Positions 683 through 26,853 of a stretch of DNA of 31,318 nt are shown in pieces. Source of the stretch: Candidatus Heimdallarchaeota archaeon (GTDB lineage: Archaea; Asgardarchaeota; Heimdallarchaeia; Heimdallarchaeales; Heimdallarchaeaceae); assembly GCA_016839875.1 (NCBI GenBank), contig JAEOTK010000270.1, positions 1 to 31,318 of the forward strand, in the 5' to 3' direction. The position numbers and the translations under genes were made by a program. Below the pieces are notes generated by a model. It saw nothing but the letters and a program-made list of their open reading frames with translations. It was not told the origin of the DNA and ran no database searches. Numbering within the stretch: position 1 is the first letter of the stretch; each line of letters starts with the position of its first letter.

Positions 683-1138
683 TTAATCCAATTGTCCCCA
701 TGTTAAGAATTTTCCATCCTTTCTTTTCACAAGGACAGTACCGAATTTTCTCCATTGTTCTTCTCTGAATCTTATTATACTAAAGTCAAATTGATCATCT
801 TTCTTTTCTATCTGTTTCATGAGTTTAGCTCTCTTTTTCTCATCTTCATAGAAAATTTTGGAGATATATTTTCCCTCTCTTGGTCCTCTTTGAATATCCT
901 TACCTAAATCTAATATCTGCTCAACAGGCAATAATGCTAACATTTGCTTGTGTTCAGTTGTGTAAACAGACCCTGGACAGATTTCTTGTTCCTCATTCTC
1001 TTTTTTACAACGGGTACAAAAAACAAGTTGACAACCACTACACAATTCCCATCCATCAAGAGCTGCTTCTTTAACTGTTTTCAAATCATTACAAAAAGCA
1101 CAACGAATGTAACATTGCATGAATTCAGTGTTTCTCAA
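683..1138 (-). CDS. Small cysteine-rich protein with RING-like zinc-ligand spacing, last gene of the SMC operon
   Basis: This 151-residue protein has a cysteine-rich N-terminal half and a charged, helical C-terminal half. Candidate zinc ligands are C9, C13, C16, C33, C36, C41, C44, C54 and H63. The order C13-x2-C16-x16-C33-x2-C36-x4-C41-x2-C44-x9-C54-P resembles the variant RING of Nse1, which has a His where C41 stands and ends in CPxC. The expected last CxxC pair is not intact here; H63 could replace a ligand. No winged-helix part is visible, unlike true Nse1. The start is a TTG whose last two bases overlap the TGA stop of the upstream gene. An in-frame ATG at 1120 (M7) is the alternative. 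The overlap implies co-translation with the SMC, kleisin-like and winged-helix genes. A plain double zinc finger is equally compatible with the sequence. Confidence 0.7.
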   Translation of the reverse strand: MRNTEFMQCYIRCAFCNDLKTVKEAALDGWELCSGCQLVFCTRCKKENEEQEICPGSVYTTEHKQMLALLPVEQILDLGKDIQRGPREGKYISKIFYEDEKKRAKLMKQIEKKDDQFDFSIIRFREEQWRKFGTVLVKRKDGKFLTWGQLD

Positions 1139-1734
1139 ATTTTTCTAAACTCCTCAGCTATCTTCTTCCTTTCCTCTTCTCCAAATTCAATTAAAGTTCG
1201 ATAGTTATAGGTCCATTTAGTTTGCTTTCGTTTTAGATAACCAAATTTATGCAATTTTCTAAGACTTGTATCAACAAGGTATTCTTTCATCTTTCCCATT
1301 ACAACTAGTTTTTCCTTTATTCTTTCTGTTGTAACTGGTTTCGCTTTATCCACTTCTAAGAATCCCATTACGACACCCAAAATTACTAATTCGGGTTGTT
1401 GTAATTCAGAAGGTGCATAATAGCTTGTTTTCAAACAATACCATCGTTCTTCATCGAAGATGAAATCGATAACATCTAATCCTAAAATATGTACAAAGTT
1501 CTTGAATTCATTAATTACATCTCTTAAAGTGCTAATATCAAATCCTGTAGCAAGAAGTAAATCCATTTCAGAACTTCCAAAAACAACAGTATTCTCTTTT
1601 TCCCATTTTCGAGAGAGGATAGTTGCTAATTCCTTGAATAGGATCCCTTTTTCCTCATCTGAAATTGAGGGTGGGAGAACTATCTCTGATTCCCGTTCCG
1701 ATTCGATAACATCCTTCTGATTAGTCTCTTCCAT
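1135..1734 (-). CDS. Tandem winged-helix (kite) protein resembling MAGE/Nse3
   Basis: The protein has 199 residues. After an acidic N-terminal tail, residues about 27-105 look like a first winged helix ending in a strand pair around LGLDVIDFIFDEERWYCL. Residues about 113-185 look like a second, with ELVILGVVMGFL, then helices, KFGYLKRKQ and a TYNYRTLIEFG tail. The order matches the MAGE homology domain of Nse3: an FGLxLxEV strand, an LLxVVLxxIF helix, a YL turn, then a W-G-P-R-A-like end. Kite proteins bridge the kleisin in SMC complexes; the ScpB, MukE and Nse1/Nse3 families belong here. The gene starts with ATG inside the end of the kleisin-like gene (55-base overlap). GAGG lies directly before the ATG, and no better in-frame start is visible. 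Similarity to ScpB rather than Nse3 cannot be excluded without profile searches. Confidence 0.72.
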   Translation of the reverse strand: MEETNQKDVIESERESEIVLPPSISDEEKGILFKELATILSRKWEKENTVVFGSSEMDLLLATGFDISTLRDVINEFKNFVHILGLDVIDFIFDEERWYCLKTSYYAPSELQQPELVILGVVMGFLEVDKAKPVTTERIKEKLVVMGKMKEYLVDTSLRKLHKFGYLKRKQTKWTYNYRTLIEFGEEERKKIAEEFRKI

Positions 1735-2528
1735 CCTCTTTCACTTTCTTGTGCTTTCTTCATTTTAGGTGACAATAGAACAGAACTGGAAATACCTGTT
1801 TCTCCGTTATCTTTGTCTATCTCTGCAAAAATGAGCTCGTTTTCTCCCACTTGAATTACTTGTATTTTTTTCTCACTTATCATTTTTGATAATACTTCAG
1901 CTTCTGCTGTTGTTAATATATCTTCTAATTCATCTTTCTTAATTCTCTCTTTAGCTAACTTTGAAATTATTCCTGATTCTAAGTTCATAATATCACCTTT
2001 ACTTAATCGAATGTTCTTCAATGGAGTTACAAAATCTTGATATTTCATAATGAATTGCTGGAGTGCTTCCTTTGATTCTAAATCAATCACTTCTTTAGAT
2101 ATAATCGCAGCAACATTAGTGATTCTTATTCTATTTTGGCTAGCAGTATAGAACACAGCTTGACTCAGTTTTGCTATTGTTCTAGCGAAATCCGCTAATC
2201 TTTGTTCTGGAAGAAGAATCTGTTCTAAATAACTTATTTCTCTTAATTCATTCATGTCTATGAAATCTTCATATAATGCAGAATCGAGAAGATTCTCTTT
2301 TTGAGTTTTTAAGTAAAGATAAGCATCTGATACCTTAGACCGATCTTCTTCTGCTTCTCTAACATCGACAACTTCCTTCTTCTTAATGGATTTTGAGTAT
2401 TTTTTCTCTAACTCAAATAAGGTTTGAAAAATCGCTGTTGCCCATTCGATGGTTTCCTCAACATTCATCTTTGAAACAATTTGATCTTCTTTAACGATAC
2501 CTCCATTGGTAACATCTTGGTCTGTCAT
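1680..2528 (-). CDS. Probable kleisin-like subunit of the SMC complex
   Basis: This 282-residue, mostly helical protein is encoded directly after the SMC gene; its ATG overlaps the SMC stop in ATGA. Residues about 20-70 and 90-180 are amphipathic helices. Residues about 192-240 can be read as a small winged helix: a helix KKDELEDIL, a second helix TTAEAEVLSKMISEKKI, then the strand VIQVGENELIFAE. The tail is basic (KRLIRRMLSNR). Kleisins such as ScpA and Nse4 carry a helical N-terminal domain that grips the SMC neck and a C-terminal winged helix that caps the other SMC head; this layout is compatible. I see no decisive family motif, so the call rests on operon position, size and the C-terminal winged helix. 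A second kite protein is the main alternative. Confidence 0.62.
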   Translation of the reverse strand: MTDQDVTNGGIVKEDQIVSKMNVEETIEWATAIFQTLFELEKKYSKSIKKKEVVDVREAEEDRSKVSDAYLYLKTQKENLLDSALYEDFIDMNELREISYLEQILLPEQRLADFARTIAKLSQAVFYTASQNRIRITNVAAIISKEVIDLESKEALQQFIMKYQDFVTPLKNIRLSKGDIMNLESGIISKLAKERIKKDELEDILTTAEAEVLSKMISEKKIQVIQVGENELIFAEIDKDNGETGISSSVLLSPKMKKAQESERGWKRLIRRMLSNRNGNQR

Positions 2529-5500
2529 GCGAACGCCTCCGGTCCTAGAATCTTGCTTTCTATCAGTATTTTATGTGAGAATTCTTTTGATAATTCCACG
2601 TCATCAAGCATTGGAGTAATTAGAATAAACTGAGGTATAATCATCCTATTCTCTTTTGCTAGACGATAGGTTGTGAGAGCCATTGAAAAAGCTATTGCTC
2701 GATTCTTTTTATCTAGTTTCTGTGTAAATTCATCAATTGCATGAATTGGGGAGTGATTGATCATATGTAGAGACAGTATTAATGACTGAGCAAGCAATGT
2801 TTTCTCCCCACCAGAAAGCTGTCGATATTGTCTTTTATCTCCCTTTGTTTCTGCTTCAATAACTAATCCTGAGTTTCTTTCATCATTGTAATTTTCAATA
2901 CGAATTGATATTTCAATAAAAATCTCTCCCAGAAGTAGATTCATCATCTTATTCAGATGATTTACTATATCGAATAATCCACCTTCCCATTCTTTTATTC
3001 TCTTGTCTAAATCTTTCTTCAAGTTGTTTAGATGGACTTCACTCTCTTCAACTTCCTTTGAAACTTTTTCAACAAGAGCTATTTGACTTTCTAGGGTTTC
3101 AGGTGAAATTTCTGTTGTTACCTCAAGAAGATCAAGTTGTCCTTTTAGTTGATTATACTCTGAAAAAATTTCATCATTGTTCTTTCTAATCTGTTCTGGA
3201 GGAGCCCCTTTCTCTTGAGCTAATCCTGCAAGATGAATACTTTGTACTTTTAGTTCTTCGTATTCAAATGCTAGAACTTCAATGTGCTTCAGTGTTTTTT
3301 CTCTTTTTGTTGCCAAATTCTGAAGATCTGTAACTAATTGATTGAGTTCTTTTCTCTTTTCAAGAACATTCTGTTGTTGTTCTAGAAATACATTTTCCAT
3401 GTCTCTAATTTGGATTTCGAGAACTTCAATATTTGAATCCAAATTATCTATACTTATCTTTGTTTTATATAATTGATCTTCCAATTCACTTTTTGTTTTT
3501 TCTAAACGAAGGAATTCTCCTTCAGCTTCATCTGTTCCCAAATTCCAGGGTTGAAGCTGTTTCTCTAAATTCATACGTTGAAATTCAAGATCAGTTTTTT
3601 CTTTTGTGTATTGACTTGCTTGTAAACTTAATTCTTCCATCTCTTTGTGAAGTTTGTTAAGTTGATCCCTGATTCTTTCCATTGACTGATATTTGCTTGC
3701 TTCAACACCTAGATTGACATTGTATGCTATTGGAGGACGTGTAAATGCCTCTTGAGATAAATAATAGCTCTTACCATCTGTTGTCAAAATATTTGTTCTA
3801 TACTTCTTTGCGTAATCAGTAATTGTATTTGGAGTCATATCAGGAGAAGCTAAAATAATTCGCACGAACCTATCTAAATAAACTTTAACTTGTAAAGGAG
3901 CATCAATGAGATTAATTACAAAATCTAGAATTCCATCTGGCTTATCTTCTAATTTTTGCTTTGCTATATATTCGTGTTTGGATCCATCCTCCTTTTCCAA
4001 TATTCTTCCAACTGTAAAGGTTGGTTTGAATACAGGGAATAATTCATCATAATTAGACTTAGCTCCTTGATAAGCCTCTTGCGAAGTTGCTACAAAACTA
4101 AAAAGATATCTTCCAAGAGCAGATTTGATTACATTAGTAAATTGTTTGTATTTACGAGTTACTGATATAACTTCATAAAGAGGACCAATTATTTCATCCT
4201 TATATTTTGAGAGCTGCATCTTTTCCTTGAAACTGATGCTATCTTTAATCAGCCTTCTTTCATAATCACTAAATTCACCATACAGGTGAGCTCTCTCATT
4301 AATTCTTTCTTTAATTAACTTCTCTTCTTCTCCCTTCTGCTTGAGTTCTGAAACAATCTGCTCACTCTTTTCGTTACTCAATATTTGTTGCTTTTTCACT
4401 TCATCTAACTGTTCTTGTAGTTGCATTTTCTGTGTGAGTGTGTCGCTAGCTTTTAGTTTTGTGAAAGATGATTTTTTGTCTTCGGTTATTTCAATTGTTG
4501 ATCTAATTTCTTCACTATATCTTTGTTTCTCTTCCCTTTGACCTTCCAACCTGTTTTTCTTGTCAGTCATAGATTGAATTTCAAGCCTGCAATCACGTGC
4601 TTCAGTATCTAAGCTTTTCATTTCTGCTTGCAGAACGTTGAAGCTATTTTGAGTTGTTTCTTCATTTTCTTTTATAGTCTCAAGATCTTTTTTCTTATCA
4701 ATCAAATCCTGTGAAACTTTTTCGAATTCTACTTTGCTTGTATATGCTGAGAAATATGCTAATTCTCTATCAACAACATCAAACCTTTCTATTAGTTCCT
4801 TCTTCTTCTGTAATCTTTCATAATTCTCTTTCAGTTTCTGGAGATTTTGTTCTTCCTTCTCTAATTGCATTGCAAGTGGTGAGTGTTCTCTTTCTTTTTC
4901 TTCAACTCTTTTCTTAGAATTCAAGTAAGTTGAAAATACTTCCTTTAACCCAGTTGCTACTAACAGACTATCTAGTTTCTTGTGAGGAGATCCATCTGCA
5001 AATGAACCAAGATAACCCTCTTCTGTGAAATTTAGCATTGTATCTTCAAAAATACCTAATTTCTTCATTAATGTCTGAATTTGTCTCTTGGTGATATCTT
5101 TCTGCTTGCCATCCTCGGATATGATTCTTCTTTTGACTCCACCTTTCTTGTCAATATTGATTTCAATGCTAAAATAATCATTATTAACAAAATTATTTAT
5201 ATCTGGATCATTACTTGAAATAACTCTTTGATCATGTAGAATAGGATCAGAATCTGAAGTGACTCTTTTATCATATAAAGTAGGATCAGAACCTGAAATG
5301 ACTCTTTGATCAGATAGAATTGGATTGAACAAAGATAAATTTATTTTACAATAATCATCAAATGAACCTACTAAATCCTTGAAATTACTTAATGACACTC
5401 GTGAAGGAGTATGTCCAATAACCAATATCAATGCCTCTAGTATCTGTGTCTTTCCACTTCCATTGGCTCCAGAAATAACTATAATTGGCACTTCGGATAG

Positions 5501-5584
5501 GTTTAACGCTGTAGATTTATGCATTTTAAAGTTGTAAAGCGTTAGACGATTGAAGATATAGTTATTGGGTATCAGAGTAGTCAT
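2525..5584 (-). CDS. SMC-family ATPase with hinge domain, SMC5/6-like
   Basis: The protein has 1019 residues with full SMC architecture. Walker A is GANGSGKT at 39-46. Coiled coil runs from about 200 to 455, a hinge from about 460 to 630, and coiled coil again from about 640 to 860. The C-terminal head carries the signature LSGGEKT (923-929) and Walker B ending in D951-E952, followed by a D-loop. The hinge shows the typical start IIGPLYEVISV and the ALGRYLFSFVAT segment, which argues against Rad50 (zinc hook) and RecN. At about 1000 residues it is nearer the size of Smc5/6 than the roughly 1200 of bacterial SMC. Such ATPases entrap or extrude DNA when paired with a kleisin and kite proteins, and candidates for both follow directly in the operon. 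It is first in the operon, with its own TATA box. A 39-base tandem repeat lies inside the N-terminal head. All key ATPase residues are present, so it should be active. Confidence 0.92.
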   Translation of the reverse strand: MTTLIPNNYIFNRLTLYNFKMHKSTALNLSEVPIIVISGANGSGKTQILEALILVIGHTPSRVSLSNFKDLVGSFDDYCKINLSLFNPILSDQRVISGSDPTLYDKRVTSDSDPILHDQRVISSNDPDINNFVNNDYFSIEINIDKKGGVKRRIISEDGKQKDITKRQIQTLMKKLGIFEDTMLNFTEEGYLGSFADGSPHKKLDSLLVATGLKEVFSTYLNSKKRVEEKEREHSPLAMQLEKEEQNLQKLKENYERLQKKKELIERFDVVDRELAYFSAYTSKVEFEKVSQDLIDKKKDLETIKENEETTQNSFNVLQAEMKSLDTEARDCRLEIQSMTDKKNRLEGQREEKQRYSEEIRSTIEITEDKKSSFTKLKASDTLTQKMQLQEQLDEVKKQQILSNEKSEQIVSELKQKGEEEKLIKERINERAHLYGEFSDYERRLIKDSISFKEKMQLSKYKDEIIGPLYEVISVTRKYKQFTNVIKSALGRYLFSFVATSQEAYQGAKSNYDELFPVFKPTFTVGRILEKEDGSKHEYIAKQKLEDKPDGILDFVINLIDAPLQVKVYLDRFVRIILASPDMTPNTITDYAKKYRTNILTTDGKSYYLSQEAFTRPPIAYNVNLGVEASKYQSMERIRDQLNKLHKEMEELSLQASQYTKEKTDLEFQRMNLEKQLQPWNLGTDEAEGEFLRLEKTKSELEDQLYKTKISIDNLDSNIEVLEIQIRDMENVFLEQQQNVLEKRKELNQLVTDLQNLATKREKTLKHIEVLAFEYEELKVQSIHLAGLAQEKGAPPEQIRKNNDEIFSEYNQLKGQLDLLEVTTEISPETLESQIALVEKVSKEVEESEVHLNNLKKDLDKRIKEWEGGLFDIVNHLNKMMNLLLGEIFIEISIRIENYNDERNSGLVIEAETKGDKRQYRQLSGGEKTLLAQSLILSLHMINHSPIHAIDEFTQKLDKKNRAIAFSMALTTYRLAKENRMIIPQFILITPMLDDVELSKEFSHKILIESKILGPEAFA
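5207..5323 (-). repeat. Three 39-base tandem repeats inside the SMC head
   Basis: Three adjacent units encode residues 88-126 of the SMC protein: PILSDQRVISGSD, PTLYDKRVTSDSD and PILHDQRVISSND. The DNA units are 39 bases each and clearly similar, with shared cores such as ACTCTTTGATCA on the plus strand. They keep the reading frame and lie between the first head strands, after Walker A. Expansion of a surface loop by tandem duplication is the simplest explanation. Confidence 0.85.
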
Positions 5585-5684: not shown

Positions 5685-8600
5685 TTATTTTTTGAATTTC
5701 TTCTTCATGGTTGTTGCGACTGCTGTAACTAGGATTGCACCTAAGGACCAGTATAGAGCGTCAATTCCACCCATTCTTCTGGTGTGTTCTCCTGCAAATA
5801 CATCAGCACCTGCAGAGGTTCCAGTTTGAGTAGATTGACCGTATTCTTCCCAATCTTCATTATCTTGAGATTGTCCATCTAATGCTTGCATTAATGGTGC
5901 TTCAGTATCAGTCTCTGGTTGAAAATCATCGTCGCCTTCTTGTAGTTCATTTTCATATGGACTTGTATAGACTATGATGATACCAGGTATGTAACATCCG
6001 TGACTGAATAAGAACAGCCATCTCATCGAGATAATGACATTCTGTCCAGGTTCCAGTGTTATTCCAGTAAATAGAATTATTCCCATTCCATGAATAGTTG
6101 TGTTGAAATCATTTCCTTTTGTAGTACTTCTAGATTGTAAATCCATATTGGTTGCATTGTAGAATTGAATGACAGTTAATCTAGTAACTACTTCACCTAT
6201 ATTGGTGATAGTAATTGTAAGTTCTAGCTCCCATGGAGCATCTTCAGGAATAATGAAATTAACATCTACTTCAACTTGTAATATTGGCTGTGGAAATGCG
6301 GGTCTTCTATCGGTTGAAGTTGGTAACAACATTGCCCAATCCATATTGGATATAACAATTTGCTCTGTTTCGGATGCACCTTCAAATACTGCTGATATTC
6401 CAGGTCCAAAATCAACTACTGCTGGGGCTTGTCCAACATCACTCTTGAATTTCACAACAGCATACACTGGATGAATTCCTAAGAATGAATTAGCTTCAAC
6501 GTTTGCTACGCTACTGTAAATTCCACCACCACCGGCAATACTGGCTACGCCATCAGTCCAGAAAAGTTGTGGATCTCTGATTTGCCAGTCACTACCCATA
6601 CGTCCATGGTATAGAAGAATTTCAACATCTTCAGCAGCTACATCTCCAGTATTCTCAACAGTATATGTAACTTGAACTGGGTCACCTACTTGATAAGCAG
6701 GAGCATCAAGTTCTACATGAACATTAAGGACAGCTTCATCGTCTGCAACTTGTAGGTTGAGACCATTACTAAATCCATAATACTCAAAGCCTTCTTGATC
6801 CATGTAACTGAATCTTGCACCAGCTGAAATCCAAATATCTTCCCAAGGTTCATAGAAACTCAAAGGTCGACTGTAAGTGAAATCTGCGCCTGGATCAAAG
6901 TGACCAAAAAGTAATCTCATTAGGTCATATCCGGTTTTATCTACAGTTGTCAATTGGAGTGCATAGTATGCTCCCCCTACATCTACTGGCTCAACAGACA
7001 TAATTCCAAAGTGATCATCTCTAGCCGGAATGTTATCTAAAGCCCATCTTTTAGTAGTATTTTCGTCTGGTTGTAACAAAGGAATAGTTAATTCTAGAAT
7101 TGTTTCATTTCTAGCATCTAAACCAATACCACCCACATCTCTAAAGCTGAAACTAAAGTCCATAAGATCAGGATCAAAGATTGATTGTGGAGTGTATAGA
7201 AGATTAAATAGATCAGTTCCAGCTGCTTGAACTCCTAAACCTAGTTGTGCAGAATAATCTGGAATAATATCCATTAGTTCTGTAGGGTCATATTGAGTGA
7301 GATCTACTAAACTCAAAAATTCAATTACTCTATCAAATAGAATTGTTGGTAATCCTTGAGCACATTGGAGACTTACTGTTACTTCAGTTAAACCTACAGG
7401 AATTATGTCTCTAGAATTGTATCCTACAATTTCGTCTGTCAATGCTGGATTGAAGTTAACTAATGAATCATTAGCTACCCATCTATACCAGCCTTCTAAA
7501 ACCAGAACTTTTTGATTATAAGTATAAGTAGGACTACCTAATACTTCAACATCTAAAGTACCATATATTTCGATCAGAGCAGATTCATCTATATAGACGT
7601 CACTTCTTAGAACATCTAAATCAGGAATATCATCTAATATTTCATAGAAATCAGGACCTAAGTTATAACTAATGTGTATATCAGTAGCATTTTCTTCTCC
7701 TGTATTCTCGACGAAATATTCCATCTCTAATCTTCCATTGGTATTAAGTTCATTTTGGTCATATCCCATATTCACTGTAACCTTTGGATAAGATGACAGT
7801 TTAGCGTGATCTATATTGAATTGTACTTCATAATTCTGTGTTGGTTTAGGAACCCACATCCATGGTAGGTTCAAGTTCCAATCCATCTTTCCTGTTATGT
7901 GTGGAGCAAAGTTATCTGTAGTAGGAGAAATTGATATTGGATTAATTGTATAAGGAAATCTGAATTTTAGTATAGAATATTTCAGTGCGATTGGTCCTGA
8001 ATAAGGAGCAACAAGAGCACCAAAGACATTTGTAGTTGAAAGAGTAAAATCAGTTGTCCCTGTTATTGCGTCATCATCAACATAATAAACACCTCGAACA
8101 GGATTCATTCTTCCTTCAAGCATTCCTTCACCCATAACTACGGCTTTTACTGGGGCAGCGCCAACAGTTGCTCCGTTCAATAAAGAAACAAAGCCACTTG
8201 TAATGTCAGTTTGGAATTCAGTTATTAAAGTACTGAAAATTGAATTTGACATTCCTCCTGTGAAGTAGTAAAGATAATCCCCACTTGGTAGAACGTCTAA
8301 TCTTGACCAGCTGAGTGTAACCCCATATTCAATGGCAAACATACCTGCTATATCTAATGCATGAGCAAGACTTCCAACTGCACCTAAACTGCTATCAATT
8401 TCTAAAATTAAGGTAGCATTTTCAGGAGCTTTGAAAGGTCTTCTAACTAGATATGGAAGGTAGTTATCTTGATCAGAAGCCACGAATAGCCAGTTATTTA
8501 CACTACTGAAGCGTGCATCTGTAGCAATATCTGGAACATCGCCTCCGATAAGAATCAATTCGATTAAAGCTGCAGCATCTATACCTGCAACTATTTTCAT

Positions 8601-8744
8601 TTCTTCAACAAAGAACGGTCCAGCTGCTGTAGACATTGTAGTGTTACTTGAAGCAATTTCAGCTTGAATAACTGAACCACTTACAGTAAGCAAAATAATA
8701 GTCAAACCCAACAATGCTGAACCCATTATTGTTTTGTATTTCAT
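5685..8744 (-). CDS. Large secreted, membrane-anchored surface protein with CARDB-like beta domains
   Basis: The 1019-residue protein has a signal peptide (residues 1-28, ending near SVIQA), a long extracellular part, and a C-terminal membrane helix (about 990-1012) followed by KKKFKK. That tail predicts an outside-facing protein anchored at its C terminus. Three segments look like CARDB/DUF11-type beta sandwiches, each with the hallmark of strands around an EN-TG or TNIG turn: about 318-400 (YFVENTGEEN), 673-770 (TYTVENTGDV) and 836-920 (ITITNIGEV). An acidic, Ser/Gln-rich stalk (about 940-985) precedes the anchor. No catalytic motif is visible, so an adhesive, S-layer-associated or ligand-binding role is likely, but the function is unknown. 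GGAGGT lies 5 bases before the ATG, one of the clearest ribosome sites in the window. It has its own promoter and terminator and so appears monocistronic. Confidence 0.85.
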   Translation of the reverse strand: MKYKTIMGSALLGLTIILLTVSGSVIQAEIASSNTTMSTAAGPFFVEEMKIVAGIDAAALIELILIGGDVPDIATDARFSSVNNWLFVASDQDNYLPYLVRRPFKAPENATLILEIDSSLGAVGSLAHALDIAGMFAIEYGVTLSWSRLDVLPSGDYLYYFTGGMSNSIFSTLITEFQTDITSGFVSLLNGATVGAAPVKAVVMGEGMLEGRMNPVRGVYYVDDDAITGTTDFTLSTTNVFGALVAPYSGPIALKYSILKFRFPYTINPISISPTTDNFAPHITGKMDWNLNLPWMWVPKPTQNYEVQFNIDHAKLSSYPKVTVNMGYDQNELNTNGRLEMEYFVENTGEENATDIHISYNLGPDFYEILDDIPDLDVLRSDVYIDESALIEIYGTLDVEVLGSPTYTYNQKVLVLEGWYRWVANDSLVNFNPALTDEIVGYNSRDIIPVGLTEVTVSLQCAQGLPTILFDRVIEFLSLVDLTQYDPTELMDIIPDYSAQLGLGVQAAGTDLFNLLYTPQSIFDPDLMDFSFSFRDVGGIGLDARNETILELTIPLLQPDENTTKRWALDNIPARDDHFGIMSVEPVDVGGAYYALQLTTVDKTGYDLMRLLFGHFDPGADFTYSRPLSFYEPWEDIWISAGARFSYMDQEGFEYYGFSNGLNLQVADDEAVLNVHVELDAPAYQVGDPVQVTYTVENTGDVAAEDVEILLYHGRMGSDWQIRDPQLFWTDGVASIAGGGGIYSSVANVEANSFLGIHPVYAVVKFKSDVGQAPAVVDFGPGISAVFEGASETEQIVISNMDWAMLLPTSTDRRPAFPQPILQVEVDVNFIIPEDAPWELELTITITNIGEVVTRLTVIQFYNATNMDLQSRSTTKGNDFNTTIHGMGIILFTGITLEPGQNVIISMRWLFLFSHGCYIPGIIIVYTSPYENELQEGDDDFQPETDTEAPLMQALDGQSQDNEDWEEYGQSTQTGTSAGADVFAGEHTRRMGGIDALYWSLGAILVTAVATTMKKKFKK

Positions 8745-25989: not shown

Positions 25990-26376
25990 TTAATCAGGTA
26001 TGAGAGAAATTTCGCTGAAATTCAATAATCGAGTAAATAACAGATTTCCAAGTTCTAATTTTAGCTTTTCTGGAGATTCCTCGAATCTTTCAACAATGCT
26101 ATACAATTTCATAGAAAGCTCTGCATCGCCAAAGACATAATGAATATAGAATGCAAGATCTCTTGTTCCAGAAAACCTATCTAGTTCCTCAGATGAACAA
26201 ACATGTCTTCTGATAACTTCAGATTCAAGTTTTGTTACGCACTCATACAATTCTTCAAGGGTAGAACAAGAACAGAGTACTTCCTTTGTATCGTCAGAAA
26301 CAAAGTGAAACCTAACATTAGGTCCTTCATCTCCCCTTGCCATTCTTGCTAGAATTTTTAGTGTTGTAACATCCAC
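25990..26376 (-). CDS. Small DUF5752-like protein, last gene of the roadblock/longin cluster
   Basis: The 128-residue protein has no signal peptide or membrane helix. Its order resembles the DUF5752 family as I recall it: a FHFVSDDT strand, STLEELYECVTKLESEV helix, a RRHV element, then DLAFYIHYVFGDAELSMKL, which matches a DFxxWIxxVxGDxxLA-like core. DUF5752 has no established function. The gene follows the roadblock gene after 19 bases on the same strand, so it is probably co-transcribed and may be functionally tied to it. The family suggestion is from pattern memory and needs a profile search; the gene itself looks real. Confidence 0.72.
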   Translation of the reverse strand: MDVTTLKILARMARGDEGPNVRFHFVSDDTKEVLCSCSTLEELYECVTKLESEVIRRHVCSSEELDRFSGTRDLAFYIHYVFGDAELSMKLYSIVERFEESPEKLKLELGNLLFTRLLNFSEISLIPD

Positions 26377-26395
26377 AGCTTTAACCTCATTATTG

Positions 26396-26773
26396 TTATT
26401 TTATCATCATGGGTGTTAGTTTTTGTAACAATCTCTTGATATTATGCTCCAGAAGACCTTTATTCTCTTCTTTTGTTGTGATAATCACAGCATAATACTC
26501 GTCTCCAATTGGTCTCAGATATATCAAATGGTCCTTTTCTTCAATTGTTACACTCATCAAAGTATATTCTTTCATAAGCTGTTGAAGAGATTCTTTTGCT
26601 AAAGAAAGCATTTTTTCACTGAGCCATTGTATTACTAGACGTTCGAATTTTTGTGATGATTCTGCTAGTAATAAAGCATCTTTTGCATATATAATTGAAC
26701 AGCCCACAACTCCCTCAGTATTTGACTCAAATTCGTGTAGTATTCCTTCTATCTCTTGCCCAGATAGGCTCAT
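26396..26773 (-). CDS. Roadblock/LC7-domain protein, second copy
   Basis: The 125-residue protein begins MSLSGQEIEGIL and follows the roadblock pattern: helix, the strand VVGCSIIYAK, a long helix (LVIQWLSEKMLSLAKESLQQ), then the strands LMSVTIEEK, HLIYLRPIGD and YYAVIITTK, and a C-terminal helix. It is more divergent than the copy at 20280. I chose ATG at 26773 over the in-frame GTG at 26782: GGTGAT at that GTG fits as the ribosome site of the ATG. It lies between the longin-like gene and the DUF5752-like gene on one strand. A role as partner or regulator of a small GTPase is known for the family; the GTPase is not in the window. Confidence 0.78.
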   Translation of the reverse strand: MSLSGQEIEGILHEFESNTEGVVGCSIIYAKDALLLAESSQKFERLVIQWLSEKMLSLAKESLQQLMKEYTLMSVTIEEKDHLIYLRPIGDEYYAVIITTKEENKGLLEHNIKRLLQKLTPMMIK

Positions 26774-26853
26774 ATTTATCACCAGTGCTCTTGTGTATCT
26801 TGTTATTATTTATAGTATATCAATCTTATCTTAATATCTTAGGGAGAGAACCA

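Follow-up and report, generated by a model that had tools for sequence, protein, structure and literature searches.

We analyzed a 31,318-nt stretch of DNA from Candidatus Heimdallarchaeota (contig JAEOTK010000270.1; "the window" means this whole stretch) and found that a four-gene operon on its minus strand probably encodes one complex of SMC5/6 type, with a single SMC and a single detectable kite protein, acting as the sole SMC machine of the lineage. SMC5/6 is the machine that human cells use for DNA shaping and repair, and it is thought of mainly as a repair machine. Its eukaryotic form has the kleisin Nse4 and the kites Nse3 (a MAGE protein) and Nse1 (with a RING), whereas bacterial SMC has ScpA and ScpB. 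The reading as SMC5/6 type draws on SMC profile scores, on a tree with approximately unbiased (AU) tests, on a weak kleisin fold match, on the kite fold, and on the lack of any ScpB-profile match among 39 kites; SMC, kleisin, and kite point to SMC5/6 with unequal strength. An earlier note, made from the letters of the window, had proposed an Asgard complex of SMC5/6 type and not a standard condensin, possibly with a single kind of SMC and a single kite. The same lines of evidence support this core, while three details of the proposal (a complete complex, an Nse3 kite, and a RING) do not hold as worded.

The four open reading frames run head to tail in the order SMC, 282-residue kleisin-like protein, 199-residue kite, and 151-residue zinc protein. 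Their junctions overlap by 4, 55, and 4 bases, in that order, which confirms the operon with overlapping start and stop codons described in the earlier note. The synteny check that it suggested shows the same order in 26 of the 34 loci examined; six loci are truncated at the end of a contig, and the other two are weak kite matches standing alone. The complete order is found in 8 of 12 Heimdall loci (in the remaining four the contig stops within the SMC gene), in 16 of 20 Asgard loci collected around kite matches (two stop just past the kite, and L046 and L047 are the isolated weak matches), and in both further loci (L101, with its SMC split over two overlapping frames, and L102). In 12 of 13 measured operons, neighboring genes overlap by at most 55 bases or stand at most 27 bases apart at each of the three junctions; the exception is L044, where 942 bases separate the SMC and kleisin genes. 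Distant members share with the window 23-31% identity in the SMC, 17-22% in the kleisin, 20-32% in the kite, and 24-32% in the zinc protein, and the closest named relatives are 'Candidatus Heimdallarchaeota'. Because the order is conserved across loci, the arrangement is not a chance one. Among 227 genomes of the phylum, a narrow kite profile matches 42 and a broad one 55, weak matches included; these and all other genome-wide counts refer to the genomes of relatives, not to the window's own genome. Each of the 55 genomes has one match, with the sole exception of G024, which has a second, broken copy (G024:C336:8307-8597, with one TGA and four TAA codons within the matched stretch). Beyond this copy no second kite was detected in the genomes with the broad profile, although a divergent one could escape. 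A Pfam scan of the four window proteins gives a family above cut-off for the SMC only, and single-sequence Pfam and NCBIfam searches with the other three returned noise only. Of the alignments used, A1 holds 18 of 50 kite proteins, A3 holds 11 of these (window row included) plus 17 loci and omits L046, L047, and L062, and A4 leaves out six loci.

The SMC subunit carries the strongest signal. Described in the earlier note as an ATPase of about 1,000 residues with a hinge, it is 1,019 residues long, matches Pfam SMC_N at E 2.9e-23, and has intact Walker A, signature, and Walker B motifs; its hinge match is sub-threshold (E 0.16). A profile of 14 operon SMCs (A5, without the cut SMCs of L045, L055, L057, and L062, and also without L053) was compared with solved SMCs. 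Smc6 comes out on top with 148.4 and 143.5 bits, followed by Smc4 (112.9), prokaryotic Smc (95.6), Smc5 (84.2), Smc3 (80.8), Smc1 (78.2), and Smc2 (58.1), all of these scores being inflated by coiled-coil composition bias. A control profile of five canonical Asgard SMCs gives Smc 687.5, Smc2 479, Smc3 461, Smc4 458, and Smc1 416, with no Smc5 or Smc6 among the best 60 of 81 matches (lowest 85.8 bits). Two other Asgard SMC types, B and C, are described below; the type B profile is unspecific, running from Smc3 (168) down to Smc6 (114). In the reverse test, whole yeast Smc6 scores 116.7 bits with the operon profile, 78.2 with type B, 69.9 with canonical SMC, and 48.5 with type C, and its N-terminal part only scores 69.2, 63.1, 32.3, and 52.1 in the same order. 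When a database was searched with yeast Smc6, the named ones among the best 120 of 832 matches were fungal.

An unrooted SMC head-domain tree of 35 rows contains 11 operon SMCs (type A, without L051, L054, L059, and L060), seven of the eight type B, three of the four type C, six canonical SMCs, and eight fungal Smc6 from at least 120 matches; it is built without Smc5, Smc1-4, and Rad50, and long branches were flagged. The tree splits type B and canonical SMCs from types A and C and Smc6 at 95/86. AU tests, which cover three groupings only, reject Smc6 with canonical SMC (p 0.013) and Smc6 with type B (p 0.017) and do not reject Smc6 with type A (p 0.40). In this phylogeny, of the kind called for in the earlier note, the operon SMC does not fall inside canonical SMC. 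Judged by its sequence, and in a tree that has neither Smc5 nor Smc1-4, the operon SMC is affiliated with the Smc5/Smc6 side rather than with SMC1-4 and canonical SMC.

The predicted model of the 282-residue protein (predicted local distance difference test, pLDDT, 67.9; predicted template modeling score, pTM, 0.34) starts with helices, continues through a middle of low confidence, and has a winged-helix-like unit toward its C-terminus, in agreement with the helical protein ending in a winged helix of the earlier note. In a structure search of 350,542 PDB chains, ranks 1 and 2 are weak (E 0.028 and 0.062) and belong to chains that we take to be Nse4. No Pfam kleisin match and no ScpA match at E up to 1 was found in 18 kleisin-like members, an hhalign comparison of the family with four Asgard ScpA stays at noise level (12.4), and a PDB profile search with the family gave nothing useful. 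A match of a neighboring gene to ScpA or ScpB, which the earlier note had named as speaking against SMC5/6, was seen for none over cut-off. A RhoGAP reading of the window protein (E 0.0052) was rejected, the match being present in 1 of the 18 members.

The model of the 199-residue kite is a tandem winged helix (pLDDT 71.4, pTM 0.51). Its best structural alignment is to a chain of an Nse1-Nse3-Nse4 PDB entry, and the match to what is presumably the Nse1 chain is at least as good as that to Nse3. The MAGE profile is over cut-off in 0 of 39 genomes, and the MAGE and Nse1 profile matches of the relatives' kites lie below cut-off wherever a cut-off is shown. The ScpB profile matches none of the 39 kites, yet ScpB is over cut-off in 14 of these 39 genomes; one of 28 kites scanned has ScpB at E 0.054, below cut-off. 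PDB profile searches with the kite found generic winged helices, a single-sequence search of the PDB found noise only, and the L048 kite matched no Nse1 chain there. A profile-profile comparison with 11 vertebrate Nse1 (of at least 120) gives 26.2 for kite and Nse1, but 30.0 for an implausible pair, the Nse1 kite and the kleisin, and the alignment is shallow. A nucleotidyltransferase reading of the kite (window E 0.014; 5 of 28 members, best 0.00018; a name given to one relative) was rejected on two grounds: the fold predicted for the kite is a tandem winged helix, and distant members no longer have the G-S motif that was matched.

The zinc protein has eight candidate zinc ligands (C13, C16, C33, C36, C41, C44, C54, and H63) in the pattern C-x2-C-x16-C-x2-C-x4-C-x2-C-x9-C-x8-H. 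C13, C33, C36, C44, C54, and H63 are invariant in all 17 aligned rows, two of which are paralogues; position 16 is C in 11 rows and H in 6, and position 41 is C in 13 and D in 4. The middle spacing, C-x2-C-x4-[C/H]-x2-C, is that of vertebrate Nse1, with C replacing H at the fifth ligand. The best matches of a PDB profile search (E 0.12 at best) comprise zinc fingers of cellulose synthases together with RINGs, among them TRIM21, TRAF6, and RNF4, and the profile-profile match to the RING of the 11 vertebrate Nse1 is marginal (21.4), its cysteines not being paired sensibly. From its ligand pattern, the protein may fairly be called RING-like, not an established RING. Three loci have another, shorter gene close to the operon that also matches the zinc protein, at L056:2174-2566 (minus strand), L058:8671-9063 (plus strand), and L059:13141-13533 (plus strand), and the copies in L056 and L058 retain the ligand pattern.

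The complex seems to be the only SMC machine in close relatives, here the 21 genomes with a narrow-profile kite match at E below 1e-60. ScpA was found in none of these 21 genomes (8 + 13 scanned), whose completeness is unstated, and ScpB is over cut-off in none, although sub-threshold matches exist. Because several genomes that have canonical SMC escape the ScpA profile, the argument is carried by ScpB and the hinge. A canonical SMC hinge occurs in 2 of the 21 genomes, on contigs of G001 and G022. These canonical SMC fragments (G001:C73, locus L073, and G022:C277) are possibly stray contigs; the G001 fragment resembles that of G060 by eye. In G019, where a main contig of 3,326,783 bases makes up about the whole listed size, one SMC-sized frame is found among 33 SMC_N matches, namely the operon SMC, and the next largest matched frame has 803 residues. 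No second SMC of the operon type was found in the operon, and none of SMC size in G019. In contrast, G055-G061, G065, G069, and G070 carry both the operon and a canonical SMC with ScpB (104-123 bits), the zinc gene of G058 being out of view where the contig ends. Their presence in the same genomes indicates that the operon and SMC-ScpAB are separate systems, and most simply the lineage of the window has lost SMC-ScpAB. The Nse2 profile (zf-Nse) is over cut-off in 0 of 39 genomes, with sub-threshold matches in 7 of 14 control genomes too. Given a single SMC, a single detectable kite, and Nse2 nowhere over cut-off, the "complete" SMC5/6 core of the earlier note was too strong a term.

Like eukaryotic Smc5/6 with Nse1, Nse3, and Nse4, the operon combines an SMC nearest Smc6 by profile, a kleisin fold nearest presumed Nse4 chains (weakly), a kite best aligned to a chain of the Nse1-Nse3-Nse4 entry, and a RING-like zinc partner. 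Where the eukaryotic complex has two SMCs and two kites, the operon has a single SMC and a single detectable kite; its zinc protein is encoded by a separate gene, and Nse2 was not found over cut-off. With bacterial and canonical archaeal SMC-ScpAB it shares the gene order SMC, kleisin, kite, a presumably homodimeric SMC, and a kite to which ScpB is a close structural match; it differs in SMC sequence and hinge, in a kite without ScpB-profile match, and in the extra zinc gene, and the two systems coexist in other Asgards. SMC complexes are described as SMC dimers with a kleisin and hawk or kite subunits (PMC7297730), Smc5/6 as extruding DNA loops (PMC10132971), and Nse1 as having a variant RING of disputed ligase activity (PMC8750328). 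A passage of PMC7055376 reports that archaeal Smc-ScpA generally works without a kite, which makes an archaeal SMC operon with a constant kite worthy of note. Archaeal SMC5/6-related SMCs are stated to exist in passages of PMC10003631 and PMC9389158, the latter, citing Yoshinaga and Inagaki 2021, grouping them with Smc5 and Smc6 at 100% bootstrap. The operon SMC, which our tests place with Smc6 and apart from canonical SMC, probably belongs to this group, as judged without a comparison of the sequences themselves. In those passages the SMC alone is named, and kleisin, kite, and zinc partners and sole-SMC status do not appear. Our literature search found no paper mentioning both Nse4 and Asgard and no description of the operon partners; a 2024 preprint by van Hooff et al. 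on the prokaryotic roots of SMC complexes, cited in a passage of PMC11592926, may hold one. The probable type of the SMC subunit is already in print, and the Asgard kleisin, kite, and zinc partners and sole-SMC status were not found in print, with the same reservation for the preprint.

Several observations weigh against an SMC5/6-type complex or limit the support for it. The free tree does not unite type A with Smc6. The final P of the QFILITP motif is present in all 29 type A, B, C, and fungal Smc6 rows and in none of the six canonical rows, and a coiled-coil W is present in 10 of 11 type A, 7 of 8 Smc6, and 6 of 7 type B rows and absent from the three type C and six canonical rows (the window SMC has Y there); because type B has them too, these residues separate canonical from non-canonical SMCs and are no proof of an exclusive tie to Smc6. 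In the kleisin search, the Nse4-numbered chains tie in Z with unrelated helical chains. The Foldseek E-value ranking of the kite puts an ScpB chain first, and the last ligand pair of the zinc protein is C-x8-H, versus C-x2-C in the Nse1 RING. Two claims of the earlier note are affected. Its tandem winged helix stands, but the Nse3/MAGE identity is not established, given the ScpB rank, the at least equally good Nse1 match, and the sub-threshold profiles; its RING-like spacing stands as a ligand order, but not as a standard RING, and the Nse1 RING match is marginal.

Another reading is that the operon belongs to a third, distinct lineage of archaeal SMCs that has a kleisin, kite, and zinc protein of its own, in which the likeness to SMC5/6 is a retained old kite-type build and not the mark of an exclusive ancestor. 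The sequence matches of the three accessory proteins are weak, the tree that sets types A and C and Smc6 apart leaves A unjoined to Smc6, and the P (7 of 7) and W in type B suggest that these traits may be ancestral. We nevertheless consider such a lineage unlikely: the A5 profile clearly favors Smc6 over the other solved SMCs, and conversely yeast Smc6 scores highest with the operon profile (for its N-terminal part, by only 6 bits over type B). In addition, the AU tests reject Smc6 with canonical SMC and Smc6 with type B, and published trees join the archaeal SMC5/6-related SMCs to Smc5 and Smc6 (PMC9389158, as its passages report).

A fast-evolving standard SMC-ScpA-ScpB condensin, with subunits drifted past recognition, would account for a gene order that is the same as in canonical Asgard loci, for the Foldseek rank of ScpB, and for the sub-threshold ScpB match (E 2.5e-5) of the type C kite, a clear relative; as the sole SMC in most close relatives, the operon SMC must also cover the role of condensin. 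The ten genomes that carry both systems mark the operon as a paralogous one and largely refute this explanation, the ScpB profile finds none of the 39 kites, and the canonical and operon SMC profiles order the solved SMCs differently, so we regard it as very improbable. We give hardly any credence to a Wadjet/MksBEF-like anti-plasmid defense system. The JetC profile matches the SMC (E 2.4e-8), a chain of a JetABC entry (8dk1_E, E 0.017) is among the Foldseek matches of the kite, and MksE matches 2 of 28 kites (best 0.0023). However, the SMC scores best in padloc with the model of a different ATPase, mad3 (1.6e-12), and 22 padloc models match it in all, many only over the Walker A region or the coiled coil; the 282-, 199-, and 151-residue proteins have no padloc match, none of the four operon genes is JetD-like (the flanks were not searched for JetD), and the gene upstream of the SMC is kept in all 12 Heimdall loci, unlike in a mobile defense island.

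The analysis shows the gene order and its conservation, the ATPase motifs, the affinity of the SMC, the predicted folds, and the absence of ScpA and ScpB in close relatives, and from these we infer how an SMC5/6-type complex would assemble and act. The SMC chains would pair via their hinges as a homodimer, given that only one such SMC gene was found. The kleisin, with its helical N-terminus and C-terminal winged helix, would link the two ATPase heads, binding one at its neck and the other at its cap, like Nse4. The kite would sit on the middle of the kleisin, probably as a dimer, as only one kite gene was detected, and gene order and the ligand pattern suggest that the zinc protein may sit on kite and kleisin, replacing the RING at the end of eukaryotic Nse1. 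The intact ATPase motifs and Smc5/6 biochemistry suggest that ATP-driven opening and closing of the ring could entrap and move DNA. Because SMC-ScpAB is missing in close relatives, the complex may do the whole of chromosome organization in the Heimdall lineage of the window.

Type C operons are located at L096:4953-9963, L097:5618-10628, L098:3419-8432, and L099:5938-10990, with the order 461-473-residue gene, SMC (831-841 residues), 211-233-residue protein, and kite (167-172 residues). They resemble the window operon in a homologous kite (hhalign score 64.7, E 9e-10) and in SMCs that fall, in the unrooted tree, on the type A side of the split, and differ in the upstream gene (an AAA+ ATPase in L099, the only locus scanned) and in that the zinc-protein profile is unmatched in their loci. 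Type B, a second non-canonical Asgard SMC of 1,117-1,167 residues (loci L088-L095), has an upstream gene of 357-434 residues and a following gene of 212-227 residues in 7 of 8 loci; in L092-L094 the next gene (171-174 residues) encodes a homologue of the kite of type C (hhalign E 1.4e-10). G053:C625 and G054:C701 each have two neighboring ScpB-family genes and a divergent SMC hinge match on the same contig, perhaps a heteromeric kite pair. In the window, a gene for a 1,019-residue CARDB-domain protein (5685-8744), with no evident functional link, lies directly upstream of the SMC gene and has a match next to that gene in all 12 Heimdall loci. Downstream of the operon, a gene without Pfam match (1-519) is cut by the window end, and its orientation relative to the SMC differs among relatives. 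A tandem pair of 128-residue open reading frames at 25990-26782, taken as a possible duplication, was rejected, as the two are not similar.

Table 1. Features of the operon, with positions in the window and the basis of each assignment (ORF, open reading frame).
Feature	Positions	Strand	Basis
RING-like zinc protein, 151 aa, TTG start	683..1138	-	ORF, alignment
Conserved C-terminal motif of zinc protein, residues 124-151 and stop	683..769	-	alignment
Segment with eight candidate zinc ligands, residues 13-63	950..1102	-	alignment
Kite protein, tandem winged helix, 199 aa	1135..1734	-	ORF, predicted model, structure search
Second winged helix of kite, residues 113-197; weak Nse1 and MAGE profile matches here in relatives	1144..1398	-	model, profiles
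First winged helix of kite, residues 26-102	1429..1659	-	predicted model
Kleisin-like protein, 282 aa, Nse4 position	1680..2528	-	ORF, predicted model, structure search
C-terminal winged-helix-like unit of kleisin-like protein, residues 177-236	1821..2000	-	predicted model
N-terminal helical part of kleisin-like protein, residues 23-122	2163..2462	-	predicted model
SMC ATPase, probable SMC5/6 type, 1019 aa	2525..5584	-	ORF, Pfam, profile scores, tree, AU tests
QFILITP motif, residues 985-991	2612..2632	-	alignment, final P conserved
Walker B HAIDEF, residues 948-953	2726..2743	-	motif
ABC signature LSGGEK, residues 923-928	2801..2818	-	motif
Hinge region, approximate, residues 455-640	3665..4222	-	weak Pfam hinge at 464-506; alignment through hinge to yeast Smc6
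Walker A GANGSGKT, residues 39-46	5447..5470	-	motif

The origin of SMC5/6, the least understood eukaryotic SMC complex, is an open question, and the conserved Asgard operon, with SMC, kleisin, kite, and separate RING-like protein, is a concrete, expressible candidate for the ancestral form. Tentatively, and with some doubt, the operon could represent SMC5/6 before its duplications, with an SMC ancestral to Smc5 and Smc6, a kite ancestral to Nse1 and Nse3, a free RING later fused to the Nse1 kite, and SMC-ScpAB wholly replaced in the Heimdall lineage of the window; if this were true, an SMC5/6-type machine alone could run a chromosome. The operon also suggests that the RING of Nse1 may have started as a separate subunit. 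Lineages with this operon as their sole SMC system would show whether an SMC5/6-type motor, for all its repute in repair, alone organizes and segregates the chromosome.

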